A stretch of DNA of 64,000 nt from positions 1 through 64,000 of the forward strand of contig JAVEYB010000002.1 in the NCBI GenBank assembly GCA_034003725.1, written 5' to 3'. The notes beneath the pieces were generated by a model, which saw only the letters and a program-made list of their open reading frames with translations, searched no databases and had not been told where the DNA came from. Position numbers and translations under genes: made by a program. The stretch comes from Candidatus Zixiibacteriota bacterium (GTDB lineage: Bacteria; Zixibacteria; MSB-5A5; GN15; FEB-12). Below, one piece after another: positions 760-14,756 of this stretch (within the stretch, counting starts at the first letter, position 1; each line of letters begins with the position of its first letter).

Positions 760-3039
760 TCACACCCGTGCGACTGCGAGCATGTATTCCAGCAGTTTCT
801 GCACGCCTTCCTTGCCGCGCGTACCGACCTCCATGGACGGCCCCACGCAGACAGGACAGCCCGACCCGCAGGCGCACTTGTCGACCTGATCACGACAGGC
901 CTCAAACAACCGGTCAGCTTCGTGGTACAGCTTTGCCGACATCCCGACGCCGCCGGGGACGTTTTCGTAGATGTAGACGGTGGGTCTCTCGGTAAAGGGC
1001 GCTCTCACCTGTGAGATCGAGCGCAGGTCGCGGGAGTCACACATCACCCACAGCGGGGCGATCTTGCCGAGGATGTTGGCGAGACCGCGAAGCGCGCCGC
1101 CGAATTCATCGCCGGTCAGCCCCAGTTTGATCGCGATATCACCGGGGAAAGAGTACCAGAATGCGGTCGTGTGCATTTCCAGCTCCGGCATTTTAAGCTG
1201 GCCGGAGCCGACATTTTCGTGGGTGTGAAACTTGATCTTCTTGAACAGCACGGTGACGCAGGTAACGGAGACTTCGCCGTGGTGCATCCGAGCGCCGTCG
1301 ATGTTCTCAGTCTCCTCCGATGTCCCCAGTACCTTCAGGTCGGTTTTCGTTTCGGCGTCGGTATAGTAGTCGACATCAACTTCCTTGACGTACGCCTTTT
1401 TGCCGTCCCAGTCGAGGGTGGTGACCTGGTACTGGTCGGCACCGTGCAGGTAGATGGCTTCGGGGTGCAGGAAGATCGGCGCCGAAAAATAGTCGACTTC
1501 GCCAATTACTTCAAACCCGCGCGACTCGTTCAGGATGACGAAGTTGTCCGGCGACGCCGACCGCAGGGACACCTGCTCCGCCGGATAAATGTCGGAGGAC
1601 CAGTGGTAGCGGTCGCCGGCACGTCGCAACACATTCTGGTTGGCGAGGTAGTCGAGGATTTTGCCGGTGGAGGGGTCGTGGGAGAACTCCTCGGTGGTGA
1701 AGGGCAGTTCGAACGACGCGCACTTGAGATGGTTGGTGCGGATGATCAAATTCAGCGGGTCGATGACGCCGGCTTCGGGCGTGCGATCAAAAATGTACTT
1801 CGGTTCGGCGCACAGGAACTGGTTGATGGCGGTGGAATTCGCGATCATGATGGTCAGCGACGTACTGGATCGTCGGCCCGCGCGCCCGGCCTGCTGCAGC
1901 AGCGAGGCGATCGATCCGGGATAGCCGACAATGATAGAAACATCGAGGGAGCCGATATCAATCCCCAGTTCGAGGGCGTTGGTGGATACGACGCCGGTAA
2001 TGGAACCGTTGCGCAATCCGCGCTCGATTCGTCGCCGCTCGTTGGGCAGATACCCGCCCCGGTATCCTTCGATCGATATGCCCTGGCCGAATGAACCCTT
2101 GAGTTCGCGCTGGAGGTAGGTGAGAATGATTTCCACCTGCAGTCGGAAGTGCGCAAAAACGATGGTCTGTATTTTCTCCCGCAGAAACAGGGCCGCCAGC
2201 TGTGCGGCCTCGTTGACGGCCGATTTGCGGATGCCGAGTTGGCGGTTCACGACCGGCGGATTGTACAGCAGGAAGTGTTTTTCGCCGGCCGGCGCGCCGT
2301 TGTCGTTGACCAGCGTGAGCTGGCGGCCGATGATACGCGACGCCAGATCATCGGGATTCGCGATGGTCGCGGAGCAGCAGATGAATTTCGGGTTCGACCC
2401 GTAGAAGCGGCAGATGCGGAGCAGGCGGGTGACGACGTTCGCCAGATGAGAACCAAAGACGCCCCGGTACTGGTGAATTTCATCGATCACCACGTAGCGG
2501 AGATTCTCGAACAGCTTGATCCACTTGGTGTGATGCGGAAGAATACCGGCGTGCAGCATATCCGGATTAGTGACGACAATCTGCCCCGCCGACCGTATCA
2601 ACCGTCGCGCGGTCTGTGGCGTGTCACCGTCGAATGTGTACGTCTTGATATCGACATCGAGTTCTTCAACCGTTTCGTGCAGTTCCGCGAGCTGATCCTG
2701 TGAGAGGGCCTTGGTCGGAAACAAGTAGAGGGCGCGGGCGCTGGGATTTTGCAGAACCTCATGGAGCACCGGCAGATTGTAGCACAGGGTCTTGCCGGAG
2801 GCGGTTGGAGTGACAACCACCACATCCTCGCCGCCAACGGCGGCATCGATTGCCTGTCGCTGGTGCGTGTAGAGCTGCCGGATGCCGCGTCGGCTGAAGG
2901 CATTGACCAGGCGTTTGTCCAACGAGTCGGGATAGTCCGCGTAGCGTGCATCACGCGGCGGAAAGGTCTGCCAGTGGGCGATGTTGCCGCCGACGGACGG
3001 ATCGGCACGAAGGAAATCGATGATTTGCTCGAGATTCAT
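760..3039 (-). CDS. DEAD/DEAH-box helicase with C-terminal four-cysteine domain (MrfA/YprA type, DUF1998)
   Basis: This is a 759-residue ATP-dependent superfamily 2 helicase. Visible motifs are a Q-motif-like LYTHQ near residue 56, Walker A PTASGKT at 78-84, a DEIH box at 186-189, SAT at 223-225 and QxxGRAGR at 382-389. Cysteines at about 715, 722, 724, 728 and 731 form the zinc cluster typical of the DUF1998 domain. Bacillus MrfA is a 3'-to-5' helicase that works in mitomycin-C damage repair, so a DNA-repair role is the best inference. It is the last gene of a minus-strand run that also holds an archaemetzincin-like protein and a zinc-ribbon protein. Start at 3039 is ATG, and length fits the family. 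Confidence 0.88.
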   Translation of the reverse strand: MNLEQIIDFLRADPSVGGNIAHWQTFPPRDARYADYPDSLDKRLVNAFSRRGIRQLYTHQRQAIDAAVGGEDVVVVTPTASGKTLCYNLPVLHEVLQNPSARALYLFPTKALSQDQLAELHETVEELDVDIKTYTFDGDTPQTARRLIRSAGQIVVTNPDMLHAGILPHHTKWIKLFENLRYVVIDEIHQYRGVFGSHLANVVTRLLRICRFYGSNPKFICCSATIANPDDLASRIIGRQLTLVNDNGAPAGEKHFLLYNPPVVNRQLGIRKSAVNEAAQLAALFLREKIQTIVFAHFRLQVEIILTYLQRELKGSFGQGISIEGYRGGYLPNERRRIERGLRNGSITGVVSTNALELGIDIGSLDVSIIVGYPGSIASLLQQAGRAGRRSSTSLTIMIANSTAINQFLCAEPKYIFDRTPEAGVIDPLNLIIRTNHLKCASFELPFTTEEFSHDPSTGKILDYLANQNVLRRAGDRYHWSSDIYPAEQVSLRSASPDNFVILNESRGFEVIGEVDYFSAPIFLHPEAIYLHGADQYQVTTLDWDGKKAYVKEVDVDYYTDAETKTDLKVLGTSEETENIDGARMHHGEVSVTCVTVLFKKIKFHTHENVGSGQLKMPELEMHTTAFWYSFPGDIAIKLGLTGDEFGGALRGLANILGKIAPLWVMCDSRDLRSISQVRAPFTERPTVYIYENVPGGVGMSAKLYHEADRLFEACRDQVDKCACGSGCPVCVGPSMEVGTRGKEGVQKLLEYMLAVARV

Positions 3040-3073: not shown

Positions 3074-3631
3074 TCAAACGAGCCCGGTCAGTTGACGCCG
3101 GCAGATATCGCATAGTTTTTCGCCTTTGCTGTCGATATCGAGCATGATCTGGCTGAAGTAGTTCACGCATTTGGGGTTGCGACATTCAGTCAGGCCAAAC
3201 AAGGCCGACAGCCGATGGACGGCCTCTTTGTACAGTCTCGGATACACTTTGGAATCGTCTTCCGGGAGGCCATAGAACTCCTGCCGCATATGGTAGAGCG
3301 AGACGACCGCCGTTCCGGAAAGGCGGTCGACAGAGCTGATTACGTAGTTCTCTTCCGGTAGGTAGAGGTCCTCTTCGCAGACCGCAATCACTTTCTCGCG
3401 GCTGTTGGCTTTGGTTCGCTCAATCTTGGACAGCAAGACCTGTGCGTAGAACTGGTTTCGGATGACGTTGTAGCCCTCGTCGGGCATTTTCATGCCTTTG
3501 AGGATGTCGACAGAGCGGTTGAAGACGGGGCCGAGACTCGAGGCCAGTTTGTTGACCATCATAAAATCCGCCTCGCCCATCGGCACGACAACGATTTTTG
3601 ATTTCAGGAGCGCCATCACAGGACCTGCCAT
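3074..3631 (-). CDS. archaemetzincin-like protein lacking the HExxH catalytic motif (probable pseudo-enzyme)
   Basis: The 185-residue protein follows the archaemetzincin pattern along its length, including a conserved DLY/VSLYHMR core and the C-terminal NPKCVNYFS block. Active archaemetzincins carry HExxHxxGxxHC. Here the aligned stretch reads H139-R140, A143, G146, E149, C150, so the catalytic Glu and two of the three zinc-binding His are gone. The structural four-cysteine site survives (C150, C155, C174, C177). It is predicted to fold like the protease but not to cleave peptides. Start could be 3631 or the internal ATG at 3616, which has AGGT upstream. It lies 4 nt after the zinc-ribbon gene and 34 nt before the helicase, so co-transcription is likely. 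Confidence 0.8.
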   Translation of the reverse strand: MAGPVMALLKSKIVVVPMGEADFMMVNKLASSLGPVFNRSVDILKGMKMPDEGYNVIRNQFYAQVLLSKIERTKANSREKVIAVCEEDLYLPEENYVISSVDRLSGTAVVSLYHMRQEFYGLPEDDSKVYPRLYKEAVHRLSALFGLTECRNPKCVNYFSQIMLDIDSKGEKLCDICRRQLTGLV

Positions 3632-3635
3632 AGCG

Positions 3636-3836
3636 TCACTCGGCGCCGAAGAAGCGCGAGGTGGACCCGGCGGGGGAGACCTTCACTTCCGCTTTTTTCC
3701 GGCCGCACCGCGGGCAGTATCCCACGAAGGCCGTTCCGGCCTTGTTCAGATAGAGGCGGGTGTAGACGTTACAGCACTTGAAGTGCATGCCGATAAACGG
3801 TCGCCCGGCCCGGATGTGTGCTGGTTTTTCTGTCAC
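3636..3836 (-). CDS. small zinc-ribbon-like protein, unknown function
   Basis: A 66-residue protein with a CC pair at 21-22 and a CPRCG knuckle at 41-45, spaced like a small zinc ribbon. No signal peptide or membrane segment is visible. I do not recognise a named family. The stop codon lies 4 nt before the archaemetzincin-like gene, so the two are probably translated from one message. The protein may bind zinc and serve as a partner of that gene or of the helicase, but this rests on position alone. ATG at 3836 is the only good start. Confidence 0.6.
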   Translation of the reverse strand: MTEKPAHIRAGRPFIGMHFKCCNVYTRLYLNKAGTAFVGYCPRCGRKKAEVKVSPAGSTSRFFGAE

Positions 3837-3881: not shown

Positions 3882-4553
3882 TCATGGTTCGGGCGGACGG
3901 GAGGCCTCTTGAATGATACTTACGGTGGAAGAGCATCCGAGTCGGGACGCGCCGGAGTCGATCAACAGACGCGCCTGAGACAGAGTACGAATGCCGCCGG
4001 CGGCTTTCAGTTTTATGCGGTCGCCGACTGCTGCGTGGAGCAGGCGCACCTGTTCGTCGGTCACCGGACCGGCGAAGCCGGTTCCCGTTTTGACAAATTC
4101 CGCACCGGCGTTTGCCACCGCTTTGGCGGCGTCGGGCCAGCGGCCGGGGTCGAGCAAGTTGCACTCGATGATTACTTTGAGGATTACGTTCGACGGCAGG
4201 TTGCGCCGCACTTTGCGAATTTCGGATTCGGCTTCGACGAAACGGTCCGAGGCGAGCCAGCCGATATTGGCGACCAGGTCGATTTCGTTGGCGCCGTCGT
4301 CGACCGATGCGAGGCATTCAGCGACCTTGATTTCCGTTTTGGTCGCGCCAAGGGGGAACCCGGCGGTGGCGGCGACGCTGATGTCGGTATCGGCGAGAAG
4401 ATCACACGCGAGGGTCACCCAGACGGGATTGACACATACGGCCGCGAAGCGGTAGGTTCGGGCCTCGGCGCACAGGGTGCGAATCTGCAGTTCCGTGGTA
4501 TCGGAACGGAGGTTGGTGTGGTCAAACAGGCCCGCCAGATCCGACGGGCGCAT
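3882..4553 (-). CDS. deoC: deoxyribose-phosphate aldolase
   Basis: Class I aldolase that splits 2-deoxyribose-5-phosphate into acetaldehyde and glyceraldehyde-3-phosphate in deoxynucleoside breakdown. The 223-residue protein shows the Schiff-base lysine in KTGTGF (K155), the partner lysine in KAAGGI (K183) and the ANEIDLV strand near 89-95. The reading frame stays open further upstream, but homology begins at the ATG at 4553, 7 nt past the deoB stop, so that start is used. It follows deoB directly, which fits a deoxynucleoside salvage operon. Confidence 0.95.
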   Translation of the reverse strand: MRPSDLAGLFDHTNLRSDTTELQIRTLCAEARTYRFAAVCVNPVWVTLACDLLADTDISVAATAGFPLGATKTEIKVAECLASVDDGANEIDLVANIGWLASDRFVEAESEIRKVRRNLPSNVILKVIIECNLLDPGRWPDAAKAVANAGAEFVKTGTGFAGPVTDEQVRLLHAAVGDRIKLKAAGGIRTLSQARLLIDSGASRLGCSSTVSIIQEASRPPEP

Positions 4554-4560
4554 TGTCGAC

Positions 4561-5736
4561 TCACTGGAATGGTTCAAAGGGTGTGCCCCCGAATCGTTCG
4601 GAAATACCGAATACGTGCGCCAGGGTAGCCGCGACGTCGACAAAACTCGTCCGGGTGCCCAGATTAACGCCGCCTTTGACGGATTTCCCGTACACGAGCA
4701 GCGGGACGTATTCGCGCGTGTGGTCGGTTGACTGCTTCTGGGTGGGATCACATCCGTGGTCGGCGGTGATGATCAGCAAGTCATCGTCGCGGAGCACGGT
4801 CATCAACTCGCCCAGCCGGGCATCAAAGCGCTCCAGGGCGCGCGCGAAGCCGGTTTCATCGTTGCGGTGGCCCCAGTGCATATCGAAATCGACACAGTTG
4901 CCGAAGATCAGGCGGTGATCGGTGTCGTCGCGGGTTGCGAGGTACATTACCGACATAACTTCGTCGTTGTCGGCGGTCTTGATGGTGTGGGTGATGCCCC
5001 GGCCGCCGTACAAATCGTAGATCTTGCCGACGGCCAGTACGCGGTGGCCGTTTTGTACCAGTAAATCGAGGATGGTGTTTGTATCGGGCAGCCGGGAGAA
5101 GTCCTTCCGTCCGGCGGTGCGTCTGAACGAGCCCGGATCGCCGACAAAGGGACGGGCGATCACACGGCCGACCGCATATTTGCCGGTGCACAGGCGGCGA
5201 GCGATACGGCAGATTTCGTACAGCCGGTCGGGCGGATAGAGTTCCTCGTGGGCGGCTATCTGGAAGACTGAATCGGCCGATGTGTAGACGATCAGTTTGC
5301 CGGTGGCGAGGTGTTCCTCGCCGAGTTCTTCGATGATGGTGGTGCCGCTGGCAGGCTTGTTCCCGAGGACGCCGACGCCGGTTTCTTCCGTGAAACGCCG
5401 TATGAGGTCGTCCGGGAAGCCACCGGGGAAGACCGGGAAGGGCGACTGGAGCGTGATGCCGGCTATCTCCCAGTGGCCGGTGGTGGAATCCTTGCCGGGT
5501 GAGCGCTCGGCCATCCTGCCGAAGCTGCCGGCCGGTTGAGGGGCGGGGGGGACGCCCTCGATATCGACGATATTGCCGAGTCCGAGCCGCGCGAGGTGCG
5601 GAAGGTGCAATCCGCCGGCGGCGACGGCGACGTGGGGAATGGTGGATGCGCCTTCGTCGCCGTAGCGGTCGGCGTCGGGAAGTTCTCCGACCCCGCAGCC
5701 GTCGATGACGATCATGATCACGCGAGTTACGTTCAT
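4561..5736 (-). CDS. deoB: phosphopentomutase
   Basis: Interconverts ribose-1-phosphate or deoxyribose-1-phosphate with the 5-phosphates and supplies the substrate of deoC next door. The 391-residue protein has the alkaline-phosphatase-superfamily features of the family: metal-binding D12 in IDGCG, the DSTTGHWE phosphorylation segment with T85, MHWGHRND, and TADHGCDPT near the end. The ATG at 5736 has no good Shine-Dalgarno sequence. The gene starts only about 30 bp after the T-tract of a terminator, so its own promoter, if any, must be very compact. Confidence 0.95.
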   Translation of the reverse strand: MNVTRVIMIVIDGCGVGELPDADRYGDEGASTIPHVAVAAGGLHLPHLARLGLGNIVDIEGVPPAPQPAGSFGRMAERSPGKDSTTGHWEIAGITLQSPFPVFPGGFPDDLIRRFTEETGVGVLGNKPASGTTIIEELGEEHLATGKLIVYTSADSVFQIAAHEELYPPDRLYEICRIARRLCTGKYAVGRVIARPFVGDPGSFRRTAGRKDFSRLPDTNTILDLLVQNGHRVLAVGKIYDLYGGRGITHTIKTADNDEVMSVMYLATRDDTDHRLIFGNCVDFDMHWGHRNDETGFARALERFDARLGELMTVLRDDDLLIITADHGCDPTQKQSTDHTREYVPLLVYGKSVKGGVNLGTRTSFVDVAATLAHVFGISERFGGTPFEPFQ

Positions 5737-5767
5737 AGGGAGAAGGTAGGGCCGCCGGTCACTGCGG

Positions 5768-5806
5768 CAAAGAAAAAAAGCCCGCCCCGACGAGTCGGGG
5801 CGGGTG
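5768..5806 (-). terminator. Rho-independent terminator after the lipoprotein gene
   Basis: An 11-bp GC stem (CCCGCCCCGAC paired with GTCGGGGCGGG, 2-nt loop) is followed on the minus strand by a run of seven T and more pyrimidines. It closes the sigma/anti-sigma/lipoprotein unit before deoB. Confidence 0.9.
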
Positions 5807-5827
5807 CGTGCGAAATTTGTGAATGAT

Positions 5828-6673
5828 CTACTTCGGGACGCTTTGGACCAGCTGCTGTTCGGCGTCCACCTCGACCTTGCTTCGGTACTGCTTCCACTTG
5901 CCGCCTTCGACCATTTTGCGGTCGCTGTCGATCAGCCACCGTTCCCGGATGGATACGGCGACGCCTTCGACATACGCGAAATACATCATGCCGCTGACGT
6001 CGATTCGGTCGACGCCCTGTCTGAGGGTGCTGTCGCCATCCATGGGGGGGATCGGCAGAAGGAGATTTCCGTCGTAGGCGATCACGGCGCACTCAAACCC
6101 TTTTTCGCGGGCGAAGGACTTCAGTTCGTACGTCGTGGCGGCTTCGACTTTTTCGTCATTCAGCATGACATGGGTGGAGTGGCTCCATGTTTTGCCCTGT
6201 TCGACGGGGCCTTTCGGGAAGACGGTGGAGGCCTGTTCGTAGAACTGTCGGGTGTACGCCGTGTCTTTGACGCCGGACTGTCCGAAATCCAGATCAGCGA
6301 GGCGTCCGTCGGGGTGCATGTACAGGGTAAGCGTGCTGGTTGAGACCATGGTGTCGATCACATTCGGGTCGCCCATGCGTGGTTCGTAGACGCGGCGGTT
6401 GATGGTCTGGATGATTTCCGCCGTGCCTTCGGCAAGCACGCGGCGGACCTGCTCTTCGGCGGTGATGTCGATGGCGTACGTTCCCTCGGCCGACATTGAG
6501 TCACCGTTGAATTTCATCCAGTGGTGTTTGCGATTGATCTCGAAAACGTGCGTCTGACCGGGCTCGAATTTGAGGCGCAGCAAGACGCTTTTTTTCTGCT
6601 GCGTGCACCCGGCGTACCAGGAGAGGGCGAGGACCGCTCCCAGGACGGACACTACGATAGCTACTCGTTTCAA
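5828..6673 (-). CDS. predicted lipoprotein, possibly DUF6263-like
   Basis: The 281-residue protein begins with a short positive stretch, a hydrophobic segment and a cysteine at about residue 23 (WYAGC), which suggests lipid attachment although the lipobox is not classical. The mature part is beta-rich, with an opening like LRLKFEPGQTHVFEIN. This recalls a family of bacterial lipoproteins of unknown function; that likeness is tentative. It lies 30 nt after a putative anti-sigma gene and ends at a strong terminator, so it is probably part of the sigma-factor operon and may be an envelope sensor or regulon member. Confidence 0.6.
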   Translation of the reverse strand: MKRVAIVVSVLGAVLALSWYAGCTQQKKSVLLRLKFEPGQTHVFEINRKHHWMKFNGDSMSAEGTYAIDITAEEQVRRVLAEGTAEIIQTINRRVYEPRMGDPNVIDTMVSTSTLTLYMHPDGRLADLDFGQSGVKDTAYTRQFYEQASTVFPKGPVEQGKTWSHSTHVMLNDEKVEAATTYELKSFAREKGFECAVIAYDGNLLLPIPPMDGDSTLRQGVDRIDVSGMMYFAYVEGVAVSIRERWLIDSDRKMVEGGKWKQYRSKVEVDAEQQLVQSVPK

Positions 6674-6703
6674 CGTGCTGCTCCGTGAGGTTTGGGTTGC
6701 TCC

Positions 6704-7267
6704 TTAGCGGCCGGTCAGGTCGGCGAGTCCGGAGAGGCGGCCGATCGATCCGGGCGGGCTCAGCAGGAAGATCCCCTTCCTGAGGCTTGACCGCTCTTCC
6801 ATCGTGGCCAGATCCATGACGTGCCGTTCGAGATGATCGGCTGCCGCGCCGGCCAGAAAGACCCCGGACTGATCGTCGTCACCGGGTGCGTACACTTCGG
6901 TGTGACGGGAGCCGAGGGTCAGGGCCGCGAAAAACAGGAACAGGGAGGCGGCAGCCGAGACCAGCGACCGAACGAACATGCGCCGCTGGTGGGATGGATC
7001 GGGCGGCTCGACGGCTGTTTTGACCGGCAGGGTTCCGGCATCCACGGTGCGGGCCTCGATGAGCCGGGTCAGCTCGTCGAAATAGGCCTCGCCGGGATCG
7101 GGAGCGCGTTTTTGTCGTAACGCCTGCTTAAGACGAACCAGCAGGTCGTGCTCGGAGCGGAGGTCCTCCGAGCCGGCGAGGAGTTTTTTGACCTCGGCCA
7201 GTTCGGTCTCCGGCAGCTCGTTATCGACAAAATCCCCGAGGAGCGACATCTTGTGGCGGTGTGTCAT
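6704..7267 (-). CDS. putative membrane anti-sigma factor
   Basis: A 187-residue protein with a short acidic N-terminal helical region of about 70 residues that resembles the sigma-binding part of anti-sigma factors (LLGDFVDNELPE). One membrane segment follows at about residues 102-121, then an extracytoplasmic tail. No HxxxCxxC zinc motif is seen. It starts 9 nt after the ECF sigma gene, the usual order for sigma and anti-sigma. The function is inferred mainly from this arrangement. Confidence 0.65.
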   Translation of the reverse strand: MTHRHKMSLLGDFVDNELPETELAEVKKLLAGSEDLRSEHDLLVRLKQALRQKRAPDPGEAYFDELTRLIEARTVDAGTLPVKTAVEPPDPSHQRRMFVRSLVSAAASLFLFFAALTLGSRHTEVYAPGDDDQSGVFLAGAAADHLERHVMDLATMEERSSLRKGIFLLSPPGSIGRLSGLADLTGR

Positions 7268-7276
7268 TCTTACTCC

Positions 7277-7867
7277 TTACTTGGTAAGTCGCTTCTTCAG
7301 GATCTTCTTTAATTTCGTTCTCGCAATATGAAGGTTGGAGCGCACGGTCGCTTCGGGACACTCGAGGATGCTCGCGATCTCCGCCTTAGTATATCCTTCG
7401 ACATCATGCAGGATTGCTGTAATCTTCTGCTTGGGCGGCAGGAGATCGAGCGCGCGCTGTATTTCCTCCATCAAGGCTTTGTCTCTGAACAGGTCGCCGG
7501 GGGTGCGCACGTGCCGGGACAGGTCGGTCTGGATCTCGCCCGGGAGCGAGGACGGGTCGTTGCTGACCTCGCCATAGATCCGGCGCTTGCGCAACAGGTC
7601 GATCGAGTAATTGGTGGCGATCCGAATCAGAAACGACGTGAAATTCGTTACGTGGTTCAGGTCCTCTCGCCGCTTGTACACCCGGACAAATGACTCCTGG
7701 ACGACCTCATCGGCGTCGAGATGATTACCGAGCATCTGGTACGCCAGCGAGTAGATTTTCCGCCGGTACCGCCTGATCAGCTCGGTAAAGGCCCGATCGG
7801 AGCCGTCCAGAAATTCCTGTAACAGTTCGGGGACAGATTTTTTCTGACCCCCGAGATCTTCCACCAT
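7277..7867 (-). CDS. ECF-family RNA polymerase sigma factor
   Basis: A 196-residue sigma-70 family protein. Region 2 is seen in LAYQMLGNHLDADEVVQESF and the following ATNYSIDLLRKRR segment. Region 4 follows with LDLLPPKQK, YTKAEIASIL and a helix-turn-helix ending in VRSNLHIARTKLKK. Length and layout are typical of extracytoplasmic-function sigma factors. It is the first gene of a three-gene unit with an anti-sigma factor and a lipoprotein, and is divergent from the DHA2 exporter. Confidence 0.9.
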   Translation of the reverse strand: MVEDLGGQKKSVPELLQEFLDGSDRAFTELIRRYRRKIYSLAYQMLGNHLDADEVVQESFVRVYKRREDLNHVTNFTSFLIRIATNYSIDLLRKRRIYGEVSNDPSSLPGEIQTDLSRHVRTPGDLFRDKALMEEIQRALDLLPPKQKITAILHDVEGYTKAEIASILECPEATVRSNLHIARTKLKKILKKRLTK

Positions 7868-7913
7868 AAGAGACGAACGTACGAGTTGTGTGTTTAACGT
7901 ACAAAAAAACGGG

Positions 7914-7942
7914 TTGACGGACCCTGTGGCAAAGGTTACCCT
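7914..7942 (+). promoter_or_regulatory. possible promoter for the DHA2 exporter
   Basis: TTGACG (7914-7919), a 17-bp spacer and TACCCT (7937-7942) lie about 55 bp upstream of the preferred ATG at 7998. The -10 match is weak. Confidence 0.35.
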
Positions 7943-7997
7943 TCATGGTTGGTTTGTCAATCGTTTTTTGGATCAACGACTTATACGGACAGCCCGG

Positions 7998-9443
7998 ATG
8001 ACCGCCCCGCCCCTCCAGGAACATCGTTACAAGCTTTTCACGGTCGGCGCCCTGGGTACCTTCATGGCGACCCTTGACGGATCAATCGTCAACGTGACGC
8101 TGCCAACGCTTGCCACGCAGCTCGACACGTCGATCGACACAGTCGCCTGGGTCGTCCTCGCGTATGCACTGACCCTGATTTCCCTTCTGTTGTTGTTTGG
8201 CGCGTGGACAGAGATACGCGGCTACCGTTTCTCCTATACGTTCGGCTTTGTCTTTTTTCTGATCGGATCGATCATGTGTTCATTTTCGCCGACCATCCAC
8301 TGGCTGATCGTCAGTCGGGCGGTACAGGCGATCGGGACGGCGATGTTCGCGTCTATCGGACCCGGCATGGTCGCGACCGTGTTTCCGCCATCGGAACGGG
8401 GAAAGTGGATCGGGACGATGGTTATGATGGTTGCCGCCGGATTTATGGTTGGCCCCCCGCTCGGCGGTTTGCTGCTGAAATTCTTCAGCTGGCATTCGAT
8501 TTTCATCATCAATCTGCCGATCGGTATCATCGGGCTGTTTTTCGTCCGTCGGTACTTTCGGCACTACACCCCTCCGCGGACCGAGCGACGTATTCATCTG
8601 GTCGGAGCGCTGTCTATCGCGGTCGGACTCGTCACGTTCGTCCTCGCGCTGACCTTTGCCAACGACTACCCGTGGGGAGACGTGCGGATATGGGGAACCG
8701 CCCTCGTGTCGATACTGGCCCTGAGCGCGTTCTATCATTACGAGCGTGATCCACGAACCGCTTTGATTGGACTGGATATTTTTCGAAATCGGACTTTCAC
8801 CGCGTCGATGCTGGCAGCGACCGTACACTTCATGGCGTTGTCCGGTGTGCTGCTTCTCGTGCCGTTCTATCTGGAACGGGTCAAGGGGCTGGAGCCGTCG
8901 CAGGTCGGGATGTTTCTGGTCATCATGCCGGTCGGCATGTTCATACTGTCGTCGTGGGCCGGGAGGATTTCGGACCGGATCGGGTACCGTTTGATAACGA
9001 GCGTGGGAATGGCGGGTCTCGGGGCGGGACTACTGATGTTTTCGGGGTTCGGGGAGGACACTGCGCTGTCGTATGTCGTCCTGACGCTGGTGGTGGTCAG
9101 TGTCGGCACCGGGTTATTCAGCACGCCGAACTCCTCGGCGATGATGGGGGCTGTAACCGATCGGCAGCGGGCTATTGCATCGGGCATCCTGGCGACAAAT
9201 CGGAATATCGGCATGTCGGTCGGGGTCGCGCTGTCGACGACCCTGTTTACGTATTTCCAGCATCGGTTCGCCTACCTCGACAATCCCCACGCCGTGTTTG
9301 CAGCCAGCTACAAACCGGTGGTGTATGTCTCGGCGGCGCTGACCGTGATTGGGCTCGGCTTGTGTCTGCTGAGGACGGAGACTTCGCACGGGGGATCGGT
9401 CGCGACACCTACCAACGGTCAGTCGCCCGTGCCGCCGACATAA
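7998..9443 (+). CDS. MFS exporter, DHA2 (EmrB/QacA-like) family
   Basis: Integral membrane drug/proton antiporter of about 14 predicted helices, 481 residues from this start. The first helix carries the DHA2 motif MATLDGSIVNVTLPTLA. A second conserved segment, GPGMVATVFPPSERGKW, lies in the loop after the fourth helix, and the protein ends in a short hydrophilic tail. The frame is open for 36 codons further upstream, but that stretch is unlike a transporter N-terminus, so the ATG at 7998 is chosen. The substrate cannot be read from sequence. It diverges from an ECF sigma operon and is followed by tRNA-Ala. Confidence 0.9.
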   Translation: MTAPPLQEHRYKLFTVGALGTFMATLDGSIVNVTLPTLATQLDTSIDTVAWVVLAYALTLISLLLLFGAWTEIRGYRFSYTFGFVFFLIGSIMCSFSPTIHWLIVSRAVQAIGTAMFASIGPGMVATVFPPSERGKWIGTMVMMVAAGFMVGPPLGGLLLKFFSWHSIFIINLPIGIIGLFFVRRYFRHYTPPRTERRIHLVGALSIAVGLVTFVLALTFANDYPWGDVRIWGTALVSILALSAFYHYERDPRTALIGLDIFRNRTFTASMLAATVHFMALSGVLLLVPFYLERVKGLEPSQVGMFLVIMPVGMFILSSWAGRISDRIGYRLITSVGMAGLGAGLLMFSGFGEDTALSYVVLTLVVVSVGTGLFSTPNSSAMMGAVTDRQRAIASGILATNRNIGMSVGVALSTTLFTYFQHRFAYLDNPHAVFAASYKPVVYVSAALTVIGLGLCLLRTETSHGGSVATPTNGQSPVPPT

Positions 9444-9448
9444 AAGTA

Positions 9449-9477
9449 TTGACAGCGGTGAGCGCTGCCGATATACT
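9449..9477 (+). promoter_or_regulatory. strong sigma-70-type promoter of tRNA-Ala
   Basis: A perfect -35 TTGACA (9449-9454), a 17-bp spacer and TATACT (9472-9477) place the transcript start about 10 nt before the tRNA. Confidence 0.85.
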
Positions 9478-9494
9478 ACAAGTCTGATTTTATC

Positions 9495-9570
9495 GGGGCC
9501 ATAGCTCAGTTGGGAGAGCGCTTGACTGGCAGTCAAGAGGTCAGGGGTTCGACCCCCCTTGGCTCCACCA
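9495..9570 (+). tRNA. tRNA-Ala (anticodon GGC)
   Basis: A complete 76-nt cloverleaf. The acceptor stem is GGGGCCA with TGGCTCC, and the anticodon loop CTGGCAG sits on a CTTGA/TCAAG stem. The T-arm is AGGGG-TTCGACC-CCCCT, and the 3' CCA is encoded (9568-9570). Confidence 0.97.
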
Positions 9571-9578
9571 AATCACCG

Positions 9579-9605
9579 GAAGCCCTTCGATCATCGAAGG
9601 GCTTC
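9579..9605. terminator. 12-bp perfect hairpin between tRNA-Ala and the ArsR gene
   Basis: GAAGCCCTTCGA pairs with TCGAAGGGCTTC around a 3-nt loop, and that loop is the stop codon of the convergent ArsR gene. T-tracts are poor on both sides, but the position between convergent units suggests a bidirectional terminator. Confidence 0.65.
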
Positions 9606-9950
9606 TTCCTGTTCGGACGGTACGTCTTCGCAGTTCAAGTATCGGACCAGTGATTCAAGCCGTTGCTGCCAATACGCCCGAAACGGCTCAAGCCATTCCG
9701 CGGCATCAATCAGCGGATCGGCCTCCAATCGGCAGACAAAACTCCGTCCTACCCGTCGACGTCGCACCAGACCGGCGCGTTCCAGGATTCCCAGGTGTTT
9801 GGAGATGCCGGGGAGAGTCATGTGAAAGGGTTCGGCTATTTGTGATACAGTCAGGGGGCCATCGAGTAGTCGGGTGACGATTGCGAGTCGTGTTGGATCG
9901 GAGAGTGCGTCAAACGTACGGCATGCGGATTCGATGCTTGGGTAAACCAT
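9591..9950 (-). CDS. ArsR/SmtB-family transcriptional regulator
   Basis: A 119-residue winged-helix repressor. The family signature FDALSDPTRLAIVTRLL is followed by a recognition region LTVSQIAEPFHMTLPGISKHLGILERAGLV and a beta-wing with arginines. No cysteine metal-binding cluster like ELCVCDL is present, so it may sense something other than metal. The ATG at 9950 is chosen because a minus-strand promoter places its transcript start right at that codon. Other in-frame ATGs lie at 9965 and 9968, and none has a Shine-Dalgarno sequence. Confidence 0.85.
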   Translation of the reverse strand: MVYPSIESACRTFDALSDPTRLAIVTRLLDGPLTVSQIAEPFHMTLPGISKHLGILERAGLVRRRRVGRSFVCRLEADPLIDAAEWLEPFRAYWQQRLESLVRYLNCEDVPSEQEEALR

Positions 9951-9955
9951 ATGGT

Positions 9956-9997
9956 TATGTATCATCATTTGCGCGGGTATCGTCAAGTAAAATACTT
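9956..9997 (-). promoter_or_regulatory. putative leaderless promoter with overlapping palindromic operator for the ArsR gene
   Basis: On the minus strand TTGACG (9981-9986) and TACATA (9956-9961) are separated by 19 bp. The start would fall on or next to the ATG at 9950. A perfect palindrome AAGTAaaaTACTT (9985-9997) overlaps the -35 element, the place expected for an autorepressor. Confidence 0.45.
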
Positions 9998-10008
9998 AAC
10001 GAATTGGT

Positions 10009-10047
10009 AAAATAAAACCCGGTCCAGCCATGTGCGGCCGGACCGGG
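10009..10047 (-). terminator. Rho-independent terminator after the small membrane protein gene
   Basis: CCCGGTCC (10018-10025) pairs with GGACCGGG (10040-10047). On the minus strand the stem is followed by TTTTATTTTA. Confidence 0.85.
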
Positions 10048-10085
10048 CAGGTGTGCGTGAACTGCCTCTTGTCGAGGCAACATCT

Positions 10086-10466
10086 TTACATACTGTCGGA
10101 ACCGCCCGCCTGCGCGGCCCGGTTTTCGGCTTCAAGTCTCCGGAGGCGGGACGTAGCCAGCGGGTAGTAAATCAGGAACGCGAGGCCCGCAAAGACGAAC
10201 GTGAGGCCAACGGCGACTTCGGCAGTGACATCGTAAGGGAAAAGCTGGCTTAGCAGGGCCGCCAGACCGATTCCGACGAGGACCATACCCCATTTGAGCG
10301 AGCTCAGCGCCTGCAGCTCCCGGTTCGGGGTGAAGAGGTGCTGCACGTTCTTGTCGACCAACCCCTTCTCGATCAGCCGGTTACGCGTTCTGGCATCAGC
10401 CAGAATCTTTATGATGTAGCTGAACGCGAAGAAGATTATTCCGGTTATGAGCACGTCCTGCATCAT
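10086..10466 (-). CDS. small two-helix membrane protein, DUF6249-like
   Basis: A 126-residue protein with an N-terminal hydrophobic segment (LITGIIFFAFSYIIKI) and two further membrane helices at about 56-73 and 80-100, ending in a charged tail. The pattern LSSLKWGMVLVGIGL resembles the DUF6249 family often found beside ECF sigma genes; this is a tentative match. The start at 10466 has a clear Shine-Dalgarno AAGGAG 5 nt upstream, and the longer open frame before it is ignored. It diverges from an ECF sigma gene and could belong to its regulon. Confidence 0.7.
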   Translation of the reverse strand: MMQDVLITGIIFFAFSYIIKILADARTRNRLIEKGLVDKNVQHLFTPNRELQALSSLKWGMVLVGIGLAALLSQLFPYDVTAEVAVGLTFVFAGLAFLIYYPLATSRLRRLEAENRAAQAGGSDSM

Positions 10467-10549
10467 ATGGACTCCTTTTCTGGTTTTCAGACTGTTGCTA
10501 CCCATCTGACAGGCCACTCGGGAAGTTGTTGCAGACCAGACAGAAAAAT

Positions 10550-10578
10550 GAAACTTTTGCAGGCCTGAACCTGTCTGA
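10550..10578 (+). promoter_or_regulatory. ECF-type promoter, probably autoregulatory
   Basis: GAAACTT (10550-10556), 16 bp and GTCTGA (10573-10578) match the general ECF pattern of an AAC-containing -35 and a GTC/TCTGA -10. The predicted start at about 10585 leaves a short leader containing GAGG (10590-10593) before the ATG at 10599. Confidence 0.6.
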
Positions 10579-10598
10579 TGTACCATGTTGAGGCACGC

Positions 10599-11168
10599 AT
10601 GACAGAACAGGCGCTGGTTCAGGATATCCTAACGGGCAATCGCGACGCATTCCGCGACTTTATGACCCGGTATCAGTCGCTTGTGGTGCATGTGGTCGGC
10701 CGGATGGTCCCCAATGAGGCTGACCGTCAGGACATCTGCCAGGATGTCTTTGTTAAAGCCTATCGCAATCTGAATGGATTCAATTTCGAGGCGAAGTTGT
10801 CGACCTGGCTTGCCCGGATAGCGTACAACACCGCCTTAAATCACCTTGAAAAGCGCCGAGTCGACTTGTTTGACGACATCACCGCCGAGCACGACCGGCT
10901 GGAAGACAGACCGGCCAGCGGGCGGACGGTGGACGAGTCGGTGGCGGTATCGGACAGCGCCCGGCGGGTGCGGACCGAGATAGACCGCCTGCCGGTTTTG
11001 TACGGTACGATTCTGGCGCTGTATCACCTCGAAGAAATGACCTACCGGGAGATTGCCGACGTGATGCAATTACCCGAAGGCACCGTAAAAAGCTATCTGT
11101 TTCGGGCGCGTAAGATGCTGAAAGACCGGCTGACCGCCGCGTACGCCGAGGAGGATCTATGTCGGTAG
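10599..11168 (+). CDS. ECF-family RNA polymerase sigma factor
   Basis: A 189-residue sigma factor. Region 2 includes DRQDICQDVFVKAYRNLNGF and the core-binding LSTWLARIAYNTALNHLEKRR. Region 4 includes LPVLYGTILALYHLEEMTYREIADVMQLPEGTVKSYLFRARKML. ATG at 10599 has GAGG 5 nt upstream, while the in-frame ATG at 10578 would lie inside the putative -10 element. Its last 10 bases overlap the next gene, which encodes a likely anti-sigma factor, so translation is coupled. Confidence 0.93.
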   Translation: MTEQALVQDILTGNRDAFRDFMTRYQSLVVHVVGRMVPNEADRQDICQDVFVKAYRNLNGFNFEAKLSTWLARIAYNTALNHLEKRRVDLFDDITAEHDRLEDRPASGRTVDESVAVSDSARRVRTEIDRLPVLYGTILALYHLEEMTYREIADVMQLPEGTVKSYLFRARKMLKDRLTAAYAEEDLCR

Positions 11169-11698
11169 AAAGACTCACCGATGAACGGATATTCGACTAC
11201 CTCGACGGGAACCTGTCGGCGGAGGAACGGCAGGCGGTGGAGTGGTTGATCGCGCTGAGCGAGGAAAACAGGGCGCTGGTCGGGCAGTACCGGGAGTTGT
11301 ACGGGCAGCTTGGCACCAGACAGGTATACAGCGTGCCGCCGAGTTTCGAGCATGCGGTGCTCGAGCAGATTGAAATGGCGCGTCGCCAACGGCGCTGGTT
11401 TACGCGGCTTACTGCCGCCGCGCTTGCGGCGTGTGGAACCGCGGCGGTTCTGATTCTGGGATCGATGCTCGATCTGTCGCCGGTCGCAGCATGGCTGGTG
11501 CAGATGTTGCCCGAACTTCCCTCCGCGGCTGATGTTGCCTCGGTGTGCACGGAGTCGGCGCAGGCGTGCGGCGCCGTGATCGGCAGTCTCGGGTCGGGCT
11601 CTGCACTGTTTGCGTTTGCGGGCGCGATCCTGGTCGGTTTTCACATGCTGGATTCGGCGCTGGTCCGCTCACATTTTCGCAGCATGTCCGAGTCCTGA
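11159..11698 (+). CDS. putative membrane anti-sigma factor
   Basis: A 179-residue protein whose N-terminal 60 residues (IFDYLDGNLSAEERQAVEWLI) resemble the sigma-binding helical domain of anti-sigma factors, without a zinc motif. Two hydrophobic segments lie at about 80-103 and 145-166. The start overlaps the sigma gene by 10 nt and has GAGGAG upstream. The role is inferred from fold pattern and overlap with the sigma gene. Confidence 0.72.
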   Translation: MSVERLTDERIFDYLDGNLSAEERQAVEWLIALSEENRALVGQYRELYGQLGTRQVYSVPPSFEHAVLEQIEMARRQRRWFTRLTAAALAACGTAAVLILGSMLDLSPVAAWLVQMLPELPSAADVASVCTESAQACGAVIGSLGSGSALFAFAGAILVGFHMLDSALVRSHFRSMSES

Positions 11699-11708
11699 GC
11701 GGCGCCGA

Positions 11709-12248
11709 TCATTTGATGATCCGGATCAGCTGACGGAACGTATCTCCCTCCGCGACTTTTTGTAATTCCATCAGGCACATTTCCACCGACGTCAATACGG
11801 CGCCCGCGTCCTTGATTCGCTGGACGCCGAACTGGTAATTGTGCTCGAGCCGCGATGAAACGGCATCGACAACAAGATGCACCCGGTAACCGGCATCGAG
11901 CAGATCCATCGCGCTCTGGTAAACGCAAATATGCGTCTCTATACCGGTCAGCAGGATGTCCTTTCGGCCGAGCCGGTCGAGTTCACGAACGAAATCAGGG
12001 TTGCCGCAGGTCGAAAACGATTTTTTCACCAGCGGTGACGTGCCGGTAAGGGCGGCTTTCAGTTCGGGGATGGTTTCGCCGAGTTTGTCGGGGAGCTGCT
12101 CGTTCCAGATGATCGGTATGCTCAGCGCCTGTGCGCCGCGTGCCATGCGGACGAGGTTGGCGAACAGTCGTTCCTTCTCGTACATGAGGGTGGCCAGCTT
12201 GCCCTGAATATCAACGTAGACGAGGGTAGTGCTGTCGGGTGTCAGCAT
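11709..12248 (-). CDS. isochorismatase-family cysteine hydrolase (YcaC-like)
   Basis: A 179-residue protein of the isochorismatase-like fold with the D-K-C catalytic triad: D13 in VYVDIQGKL, K75 or K76 in LVKKSFST, and C108 in GIETHICVYQS. Members hydrolyse amides or related bonds in small molecules; the substrate cannot be predicted. The start at 12248 is favoured by GGAG 7 nt upstream, although the frame extends 13 codons further. It converges on the anti-sigma gene, and no functional partner is adjacent. Confidence 0.85.
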   Translation of the reverse strand: MLTPDSTTLVYVDIQGKLATLMYEKERLFANLVRMARGAQALSIPIIWNEQLPDKLGETIPELKAALTGTSPLVKKSFSTCGNPDFVRELDRLGRKDILLTGIETHICVYQSAMDLLDAGYRVHLVVDAVSSRLEHNYQFGVQRIKDAGAVLTSVEMCLMELQKVAEGDTFRQLIRIIK

Positions 12249-12327
12249 CGTGTTCTCCTGACTGAACGTTCGCGATTTTCTGGTCAAAGTACGTTATAGC
12301 GCTCTCCGCCGAAACAGAAAAAGGACA

Positions 12328-13767
12328 TCACGCGCAGTCCGCGGGCGCCGATCCGCCGAGGAACAAGTAGTTGACCAGGTGGATCAGGTCGGACAGATCG
12401 ATACTGCCGCCGGAATCTCCGTTGGTGTTTGCTTCGGCGGGGCAGTCCGGCGACGGTCCGCCGAGGAAGAGGTAGTTGACGAGCCAGATCAGGTCTGACA
12501 AGTCGATCGCCTCTTCGGAGTCGGCGTTGACGTTGCCGGTCGTGCCGATACAGCAGGGATCGGGCGGTCCCGCGCAGTAATCTTCGACCGCGCCGTCGTG
12601 GACGATTTTGCGGACCCGGCCGGTGTTCAGTTCGGCGATATACAGTTCGCCGTAGTAGTCTTCGCCGAAGGTCGCCAGATCGAAGTTGCCGACGTCAAAC
12701 ATGGGCGATCCGAATTCCGAGTCGACATTGCCGGCGGAGTCGACTTTCAGGCGCCAGATCTGACCCGTGCAATAGTCTCCGTAGATATACCAGCCGGTCA
12801 GATCGGGTATTGCGCATCCCCGGTAGACATGGCCGCCCGTGATGGAGCAGCGCCCGTTGTTGTGATTGTATTCGAAGATGGGGTGGTCCAGACCGGCGGA
12901 GTCGCAGTTGCTCGCCGGTTCATAGCAGTGGAAACCTTCGGTGATATCCCAGCCGTAGTTCTGCCCGCCGAGGTCGCTCCACCGTGTGACGTTCACTTCC
13001 TCGTAGACAAACTGGCCGACATCGGCGATCCACAGGTCGGCGGTGACGCGGTCGAAGCTCCAGCGGTAGGGGTTGCGCAGGCCGAATGCGAATATTTCGG
13101 GGAGGGTGTCTACCGTTCCGACCCAGGGGTTACCGACCGGGACGGTGTAAGGTGCGCCGTTGCGGACGTCAATCCTCAACAGCTTGCCCAGAAGCGCAAA
13201 CGGGCTCTGCGCCATCTCCAGCGGATCACCCGTGCCGCCGCCGTCGCCCATGCCGATATACAGATACTTGTCGGGGCCGAAGAGGATCGTGCCGCCGTTG
13301 TGGTTGGTCTGCGGCTGACGGATCTTGAGAATAACCTGCTCTGCCGAGGGGTCGGCGATATCGGGGTTGCCGGTGATGGGGAATCTCGAGATAAACGTCC
13401 AGTCGGTGTCGTTGATGCGGTTGACGTAGTTCAGGAAAAATGCCTGGGTGTCGGGGAAATCGGGGTGGAAGGCCATGCCGAGGAGGCCGCGCTCCCCGCC
13501 GGTAACGACACGATCGCTGATATCGAGCATGGGCTGCGACAGCACCGAGTCACCTTCGATAATCCGCACGTAGCCTTCGCGCTCCAAGACGAACAGCCGT
13601 ACGCTGTCGTTAGGGGCGCTGGTGATGTAGATCGGGTTCGAAAGCCCCGAAACGACCGTTTGCAGGGAGAGGGTCAGGGTATCGGGGTTTTGGGCATGGC
13701 CGGTTGTCGCGATCAGCCCCGCGACGAAAAGGAAGCAGAGGCCTCGGAAAAACTGTACACGGATCAT
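12328..13767 (-). CDS. secreted PQQ-type sugar/sorbosone dehydrogenase-like protein with C-terminal dockerin-like repeats
   Basis: The 479-residue protein starts with a signal peptide (cleavage near HAQ, residue 26). Residues about 30-400 form a glucose/sorbosone dehydrogenase beta-propeller, seen in ERGLLGMAFHPDF, NHNGGTILFGPDKYLYIGMGDGGG, FGLRNPYRWSFD and NYGWDITEG. A cysteine-bearing insert (CYEPASNCDS) is likely disulphide-bonded. Residues 411-479 hold two calcium-binding dockerin-like repeats with the shared motif IDLSDLIxLVNYLFLGG. Propeller members oxidise sugars or bind carbohydrates in the periplasm or outside the cell. The dockerin module suggests attachment to an unseen partner. 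No cohesin is recognisable in this window. Confidence 0.88.
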   Translation of the reverse strand: MIRVQFFRGLCFLFVAGLIATTGHAQNPDTLTLSLQTVVSGLSNPIYITSAPNDSVRLFVLEREGYVRIIEGDSVLSQPMLDISDRVVTGGERGLLGMAFHPDFPDTQAFFLNYVNRINDTDWTFISRFPITGNPDIADPSAEQVILKIRQPQTNHNGGTILFGPDKYLYIGMGDGGGTGDPLEMAQSPFALLGKLLRIDVRNGAPYTVPVGNPWVGTVDTLPEIFAFGLRNPYRWSFDRVTADLWIADVGQFVYEEVNVTRWSDLGGQNYGWDITEGFHCYEPASNCDSAGLDHPIFEYNHNNGRCSITGGHVYRGCAIPDLTGWYIYGDYCTGQIWRLKVDSAGNVDSEFGSPMFDVGNFDLATFGEDYYGELYIAELNTGRVRKIVHDGAVEDYCAGPPDPCCIGTTGNVNADSEEAIDLSDLIWLVNYLFLGGPSPDCPAEANTNGDSGGSIDLSDLIHLVNYLFLGGSAPADCA

Positions 13768-13907
13768 CGTATCCTCCTCCTGCGCGCGGGAAGGCGCGCA
13801 CGCTGCTCGGATTGACAGGGCATGTCGGGAATGTGGTAAAAATGGATTTCCGTTCTCTGTTATACAACGCCGTTACGGCCGGGAAGTGCCCGCCGTGTGC
13901 GTTGAGA

Positions 13908-14756
13908 TCAGGACTTCAACGGCCGCCACGAGAGAATGCGGTCCAGCCGGAACGTGCGCTCATCGTGGGCCAGCAGGCACTGGGCGTTAAGGTAGAGGTT
14001 TTGTCCGAGGCGGTGGATGTGAATCGGCCTGATCGGCCTCGTCTGAATGGGTTGGCCCGGTTTGGCGTAGCGGATTTCGATGGTGGCGGCATCGCGGATG
14101 GCGGCTGCGAGGGAGTCAAATTCCGGGGGAAGCTCCGTTACGACCTGGGCGCCATCGGCGAATTTATAGACACCAATCGTCTCGAACAACTCTGATATTG
14201 TCGTAAACTCACGGGTCATCCCGATCAACTTCAGGAAAATCAGAGAGACCAGATCGGCATCGCCAAGCGCCCGGTGAACCTGAGAGTCGGCCAGTTCAAG
14301 TTTGAGCGCGAGCGACAGGAGAGAGTACGACGGCAGATCGGGCTCGAGATAGCGGGCGAGATCGCGCGTGTCGACAATCGGATTTTCCGGCAAGGGCAGG
14401 TTGTTACGTCGAATCTCCCACGCGATAAACGAAATATCAAAGGGGGCGTTGTGGGCGATCAGGACCGAGTCCGGGCCGCAGAAGTCGAAGAAACGCGCAA
14501 GCACCGGCCCGACCGGGTCGGCATCGGATACCATCGAGTCGGTGATGCGGTGAATGCTCACGACCTCACCGGGGATCGGTCGGCCCGGGTTAACCAGTTC
14601 GGTGAACATGGCGATATCCCGTCCCTCCAGGTCAAATGCCAGGGCCCCGACTTCCACTATCCGGTTGCTGGCCGCCCACAGGCCGGTAGTCTCGGTGTCG
14701 AACGCGACAAAGCGAATCCGGTTCAGGGGGGAGAGGAGATCAAACCCGGGTTCCAT
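13908..14756 (-). CDS. DnaQ-like DEDDh 3'-5' exonuclease fused to a C-terminal WYL domain
   Basis: Residues 13-190 form a DEDDh exonuclease: D20 and E22 in FDTETTG, D107 in HNAPFDISF, H161 and D166 in HRALGDADLV, all five present. Residues about 205-282 read as a WYL-type domain (AIRDAATIEIRYA, IRPIHIHRLGQNLYLNAQC, ERTFRLDRI). WYL domains sense ligands, probably nucleic-acid species, in many regulators of DNA-damage and defence loci. The pairing suggests a nuclease controlled by, or recruited to, nucleic acid fragments. It is alone on its strand and divergent from the ammonia-lyase gene. It is not a canonical polymerase III epsilon subunit. Confidence 0.82.
   Translation of the reverse strand: MEPGFDLLSPLNRIRFVAFDTETTGLWAASNRIVEVGALAFDLEGRDIAMFTELVNPGRPIPGEVVSIHRITDSMVSDADPVGPVLARFFDFCGPDSVLIAHNAPFDISFIAWEIRRNNLPLPENPIVDTRDLARYLEPDLPSYSLLSLALKLELADSQVHRALGDADLVSLIFLKLIGMTREFTTISELFETIGVYKFADGAQVVTELPPEFDSLAAAIRDAATIEIRYAKPGQPIQTRPIRPIHIHRLGQNLYLNAQCLLAHDERTFRLDRILSWRPLKS

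Follow-up and report, generated by a model that had tools for sequence, protein, structure and literature searches.

A pseudo-archaemetzincin of Zixibacteria with a dismantled catalytic site and a closely linked zinc-ribbon gene

The window analysed here, a single stretch of 64,000 nucleotides from a Candidatus Zixiibacteriota bacterium, carries an archaemetzincin homologue whose catalytic residues are largely replaced and whose four zinc-finger cysteines are all present. The protein, which we designate pAMZ (pseudo-archaemetzincin), is encoded on the reverse strand (positions 3074 to 3631), tightly behind the gene of a small zinc-ribbon protein, zr. As judged by sequence comparison, the catalytic loss is older and wider than this one gene, and represents a trait throughout much of Zixibacteria. 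pAMZ is almost certainly non-proteolytic. We lean toward the view that pAMZ and zr form a non-catalytic adaptor pair, similar to CarG of Myxococcus xanthus with a different partner, that acts on a nucleic-acid-associated machine. CarG is an earlier example of an inactive archaemetzincin that serves regulation; an uncharacterised family of zinc-ribbon partners is what the present locus adds.

The pAMZ frame is open throughout its 185 codons, in agreement with the clean reading frame noted in the preliminary description of this DNA. Membership of the archaemetzincin family was indicated by the Pfam profile PF07998 (score 49.4 bits, cut-off 24.4), by the solved archaemetzincins of the PDB, which match the sequence with E values down to 6.5e-20, and by the AlphaFold2 model (mean pLDDT 92.5; the model carries no metal), of which the best PDB matches were 3lmc, 2x7m, 3zvs and 4axq at TM scores of 0.76-0.81, that is, the archaemetzincin fold. 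The score against the NCBIfam model NF033823 (archmetzin), 132.8 bits, was slightly below its cut-off of 145. The usual start Met of the relatives (MALLKSK...) is equivalent to position 3616 of the window; the true start is probably this ATG, giving a protein of about 180 residues, and the ATG at 3631 that opens the 185-residue frame as called may lie slightly upstream of it. The nearest named relative is a copy on contig WJMS01000057 (candidate division GN15; G002/L032), from the same genus and an independent assembly, with 93% protein identity to pAMZ. A frameshift or sequence error at the catalytic site, the case that the preliminary description had itself raised against its reading, is ruled out because the same HRLSALFG is present in this independent assembly.

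Within the segment between 3182 and 3217 of the reverse strand, the HExxHxxGxxHC motif of the family reads HRLSALFGLTEC (H139-R140-L-S-A143-L-F-G146-L-T-E149-C150), exactly as first described. Compared with the HExxHxxGxxH site of M54 peptidases, the sequence HRLSALFGLTE has lost the Glu and the second and third His. The earlier statement that the catalytic Glu and two zinc His are gone (R140, A143, E149) is right for the window protein; extended to the clade it is untrue for the two His, as H143 is kept in most relatives. The methionine of the Met-turn (CxM), a loss absent from the preliminary description, is also gone, the sequence being C155-V-N157, so that only H139 and G146 remain of the catalytic residues and the Met-turn Met. 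Re-reading of the frame bore out the retention of the four M54 zinc-finger cysteines in the segment between 3101 and 3184 of the same strand (C150-x4-C155 ... C174-xx-C177), where Asn157 occupies the Met-turn position. By these features pAMZ would be a pseudoprotease, in which the archaemetzincin fold is held by a structural Cys4 zinc and the catalytic zinc site is dismantled, and its peptidase activity would be lost in vitro.

Archaemetzincin-family genes were detected in 106 of 117 relatives, and in 94 of the 97 Zixibacteria genomes of at least 85% completeness. The motif was compared in 137 copies, of which 105 are altered and 32 intact. Among the altered copies, the catalytic E140 is gone in 95 and H149 in 101, with E or D at position 149 in 40; Met157 is replaced in 71, by Asn in 60. 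H139 is kept in 77 and H143 in 71 of these copies, and C150, C155, C174 and C177 are all kept in every one of the 105. In family f1, to which the window gene belongs, the catalytic Glu is gone in every copy, apart from an extra intact paralogue in a few genomes; most of these copies read HQxxH and some HRxxH or HHxxH, the third His being replaced by Glu or Asp and the Met by Asn. Other and often fuller degradation (such as KIVAR, RVVGA and QEVAY) was observed for f4, f2, f3, f8, f9, f14, f12, f5 and f18; in f8, f9, f14 and f18 most ligands are gone and the same zr-archaemetzincin gene pair is kept. In f7, f17 and part of f13, HExxH is kept and the third His is replaced by Asn, one f7 copy having YExxH. 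The full HExxHxxxxxH triad is found mostly in separate paralogues, together with copies of f11, f15, f16 and f19. Closer relatives retaining HExxH would have refuted the preliminary description, and none was found in f1 to f4, f8, f9, f12 and f14, extra paralogues aside.

When the catalytic columns are left out of the tree-building, the placement of the altered genes largely tracks the host families, a pattern that vertical inheritance would give. At a minimum, the tree requires two changes for alteration of the triad and five for loss of Glu140. Since the first two His survive in most relatives, A143 represents a late step in the genus of the window. Seemingly separate losses of Glu, in loci without zr, were observed in f19 and f11 (G118, locus L189; G086, L138; G119, L192), the motifs being HQxxY..D and HQxxHxxGxxH. 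One locus (L051, DYGG01000001.1) from a record titled Ignavibacterium sp. has a Zixibacteria f4 copy, and the title looks like a misassignment.

The altered gene is under purifying selection. Between the window pAMZ and its sister species, dN was 0.048 and dS 1.07, giving a dN/dS of 0.045, and values between pairs of close relatives were 0.01-0.08, as estimated by a simple pairwise method in which some dS values are saturated. The expectation that the substitutions be common to a clade with dN/dS below 1 thus agrees with the data, the closest species having the same motif. Among the 89 zr-linked copies, variability at the former catalytic positions 139, 140, 143, 146 and 149 ranges from the 65th to the 99th percentile, with 149 the highest of them at the 99th and 140 at the 74th. 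The charged positions K69, E71, K74, E79, E86 and E87 are conserved in zr-linked copies and not in intact copies, a comparison to be read by the ranking within each set only, as the zr-linked set is more closely related internally than the intact set. Selection on a non-proteolytic role, for which the preliminary description had argued, is well supported by the shared substitutions, the low dN/dS, the invariant Cys4 and the variability of position 149.

The zr gene, absent from the preliminary description, is located at 3636 to 3836 on the same strand as pAMZ, with a GTG start at 3836 and its stop at 3638-3636, and codes for a Cys4 zinc-ribbon protein of 66 residues. Its sequence follows the pattern FKCC-x(18)-CPxC, and the predicted fold is a four-strand zinc ribbon (pLDDT 89). 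In Pfam and NCBIfam no curated family matched above cut-off, the only matches being weak ones to generic zinc ribbons; searches of PHROGs and the PDB gave nothing convincing, and Foldseek returned weak matches to Tudor, zinc-ribbon and ribosomal proteins, all of them with E of at least 0.5. zr is present once per genome in 75 of the 97 Zixibacteria genomes. Using a limit of 200 nt upstream, zr was found directly upstream of 89 of the 105 altered archaemetzincins and of none of the 32 intact ones; the Fisher p value of about 1e-19 for this linkage overstates it, as few evolutionary events are involved, and is not to be taken literally. On the tree, zr requires nine changes as against two for loss of the triad, and the test of independent pairs was without power. 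Between the zr stop and the start of the archaemetzincin lie 6 nt in the median case and 4 nt in the window, as measured to the ATG at 3631. In f8, f9, f14 and f18 the two frames overlap by ATGA, the usual sign of translational coupling, and from this arrangement pAMZ is probably co-translated with zr.

zr is not strictly required, since several altered archaemetzincins are without it nearby (G020, G080, G096, G102, G081, G115, G118, two of f12 and two of f11). In G125 and G013 the zr locus is cut off by contig ends. The zr of G113 (f5; L132, G113:C23 910-1074) carries an in-frame TGA with the remaining protein conserved, which represents either a recent loss or an assembly error. In G055 (L202, G055:C14:40000-47500), zr is on another contig (3566-3733), the only clear zr away from an archaemetzincin in the same stretch. 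No fusion of zr with an archaemetzincin was noticed, the two being separate frames wherever they are adjacent. Outside Zixibacteria, plasmids gave no match for zr or pAMZ, and viral contigs gave 51 matches to the zr pattern with no relative among them.

All genes of the surrounding locus are on the reverse strand. Directly downstream of pAMZ is a YprA/MrfA-type DECH helicase with an MZB domain (760 to 3039), identified by profile matches. Upstream of zr are deoC for deoxyribose-phosphate aldolase (3882 to 4553, the domain part of the frame 3882-4751, with the start estimated), deoB for phosphopentomutase (4561 to 5736, from profile matches and the conserved neighbourhood), a conserved neighbour coding for a DUF6263 protein (5828 to 6673), a 187-residue protein without family match (6704 to 7267), which by its position is a possible anti-sigma factor, and an ECF-type sigma factor (7277 to 7867). 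Of the 49 loci whose flank is long enough, 32 have the sigma factor gene conserved at the head of this neighbourhood, and deoC/deoB are conserved upstream in 51 of the 66 loci that leave room for them. In 11 families (f1, f2, f3, f4, f5, f6, f8, f12, f14, f15 and f18), the helicase is found no more than about 400 nt downstream. Other genes lie upstream in f5, f7, f12 and f18; despite this difference, zr and the archaemetzincin stay together in f5, f7 and f18, and the archaemetzincin and the helicase in f5, f12 and f18. In the f15 locus of G094 an intact archaemetzincin without zr precedes the helicase, and the locus may originally have looked like this.

To our knowledge, archaemetzincins are widespread and their biology is almost unknown. 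In CarG of M. xanthus, which is homologous to archaemetzincins, Gln stands in place of the catalytic Glu (HQxxH). The protein neither shows protease activity nor binds DNA, and in vivo it depends on its cysteines. It functions solely as a complex with CarD, to the gene of which its own gene is translationally coupled, and the CarG-CarD complex serves many ECF sigma factors (PMC3427221, PMC8156234, PMC4374960). Two zinc ions are bound by CarG despite the missing Glu (PMC8156234). pAMZ resembles CarG as a member of the archaemetzincin family with an inactive motif and an intact Cys4; the catalytic Glu is replaced in both, Gln being the substitute in CarG as it is in most Zixibacteria copies, and the pAMZ gene is likewise tightly spaced behind an upstream partner gene, at a distance that would fit translational coupling. 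In contrast to CarG, the partner of pAMZ is a 66-residue zinc ribbon instead of CarD, and pAMZ is also without the third His and the Met-turn Met. The connection to ECF sigma factors is established for CarG, whereas in Zixibacteria there is a conserved ECF sigma gene nearby. CarG has been reported from Cystobacterineae only (PMC9304148), whereas the pAMZ form is spread across a phylum.

Identity of pAMZ with CarG was considered and rejected. Against NF033824 (non-proteolytic archaemetzincin-like protein), which from its name and description we infer to be the NCBIfam model of CarG, pAMZ scored 84.2 bits (83.8 in the genome scan) relative to a cut-off of 250, and CarD/CdnL is absent. No stand-alone CarD/CdnL was detected in any of 60 Zixibacteria genomes; the PF02559 domain (CarD_TRCF_RID) was found exactly once in each of the 60, always in a frame of 941-1325 residues, the size of Mfd. 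CdnL/CarD is widespread in other bacteria, and Zixibacteria, as sampled by these 60 genomes, appear to be without the stand-alone form.

As in the M54 archaemetzincins (AmzA of Archaeoglobus, Methanopyrus and Methanocorpusculum), pAMZ has the fold and the four zinc-finger cysteines; unlike AmzA, it is without the HExxHxxGxxH residues, save H139 and G146, and without the Met-turn Met. For human AMZ1 we know of no zinc-ribbon partner. Replacement of its third zinc His by Asn, Ser or Thr, the sole replacement named for this protein (PMC3427221), resembles the state of f7, f13 and f17. Even the intact archaeal archaemetzincins with solved structures had no proteolytic activity in reported assays (PMC3427221). 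A literature search on Zixibacteria metalloproteases or archaemetzincin pseudoenzymes found no report.

In the mechanism proposed here, pAMZ binds zr, encoded immediately upstream, and a complex of the two is likely on the strength of the gene pairing. The pair would then contact a nucleic-acid machine as a non-catalytic adaptor. The working principle would be that of CarG, which is inactive as an archaemetzincin and controls transcription only via a co-translated partner; here the partner is a different one. That the machine belongs to transcription is a tentative suggestion, based on this analogy and on the ECF sigma gene 3.6 kb away, which is possibly an ordinary neighbour. Zixibacteria hold graded intermediates, from intact copies through those with the third His lost and those with the Glu lost to those with nearly all ligands lost, and the dismantling may have followed this order, third His, catalytic Glu and then the other ligands, after the zinc-ribbon partner joined the locus. 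We are more hesitant about the full proposal, in which the phylum-wide co-translated pair would be a previously unknown regulator of transcription or DNA repair that arose by such stepwise dismantling once zr had joined. The archaemetzincin with a firm role is the inactive CarG, so far placed in a myxobacterial group alone; at the pAMZ locus, repurposing of this kind would be a core trait of another phylum, with a defined partner gene. If this is true, repurposing of the CarG type is no peculiarity of myxobacteria but a route open to evolution in general, and occurs here without CarD or CdnL. The locus makes testable both the role of a non-cutting archaemetzincin fold and the use of this fold as a general protein-interaction module for nucleic-acid machinery.

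Three other explanations were weighed. Decay of a pseudogene, or an error of assembly, might be suspected from the missing catalytic residues, from the origin of the genomes in metagenome assemblies and from the in-frame TGA in the zr of G113; for the window gene it is refuted by the low dN/dS (0.045 at dS 1.07) and the sister copy, which has the same substitutions in an independent assembly, and with an open frame, an invariant Cys4 and a family present in nearly every genome of the phylum it is left with hardly any probability. The leftover site might instead bind zinc and serve a hydrolase of altered chemistry or a metal sensor, with H139, H143 and E/D149 holding the metal. Other zincins are known in which the third ligand is acidic, many altered copies keep these residues (77, 71 and 40 of 105, respectively), most f7 and f17 copies keep HExxH with Asn149, and two zinc ions stay bound in CarG even with its catalytic Glu gone (PMC8156234). 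Such chemistry cannot, however, be the shared function, because H143 is missing from the window protein, f8, f9, f14 and f18 have lost most ligands with the gene pair unchanged, and few sites vary as much as position 149; we regard this explanation as quite improbable.

The alternative closest to the proposed adaptor pair makes pAMZ and zr an accessory of the downstream YprA/MrfA-type helicase, recruiting it to damaged or crosslinked DNA; stripping proteins from DNA may have been the task of the active archaemetzincin ancestor. The neighbourhood recalls those of MrfAB, DISARM and Dpd, in that a helicase of this family adjoins pAMZ, and MrfAB works in mitomycin repair in Bacillus subtilis (PMC12458937). 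The proximity of the helicase in 11 families, among them loci whose upstream genes differ (f5, f12 and f18), and its position behind even an intact archaemetzincin without zr in G094 fit this explanation. Unlike in MrfAB, DISARM and Dpd, no MrfB, nuclease or defence gene was recognised among the scanned neighbours of the pAMZ helicase, and the survey of the YprA helicase family mentions no protease or metzincin (PMC12458937). Furthermore, f7, f9, f17 and one of the two f18 loci have zr and an altered archaemetzincin with no helicase found downstream, and in f13 the helicase is 1.4-1.5 kb off; the link of the archaemetzincin to zr is tighter than that to the helicase. A role of the pair as an adaptor linked to the helicase or to DNA repair is accordingly rated unlikely.

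Besides the altered genes, a different arrangement was observed for intact copies. In the locus L135 (G034:C13:9000-27000, 4113-13991), and also in L081 and L136, two different intact archaemetzincins are separated by about 9 kb; a response-regulator-like gene immediately precedes each of them, and the pair flanks a putative electron-bifurcating hydrogenase cluster, the names of the neighbouring genes being read by eye. The arrangement is common to f1 (G034 and G037) and f17 (G107) at high identity, which suggests horizontal transfer and a tie of intact archaemetzincins to two-component or hydrogenase regulation.
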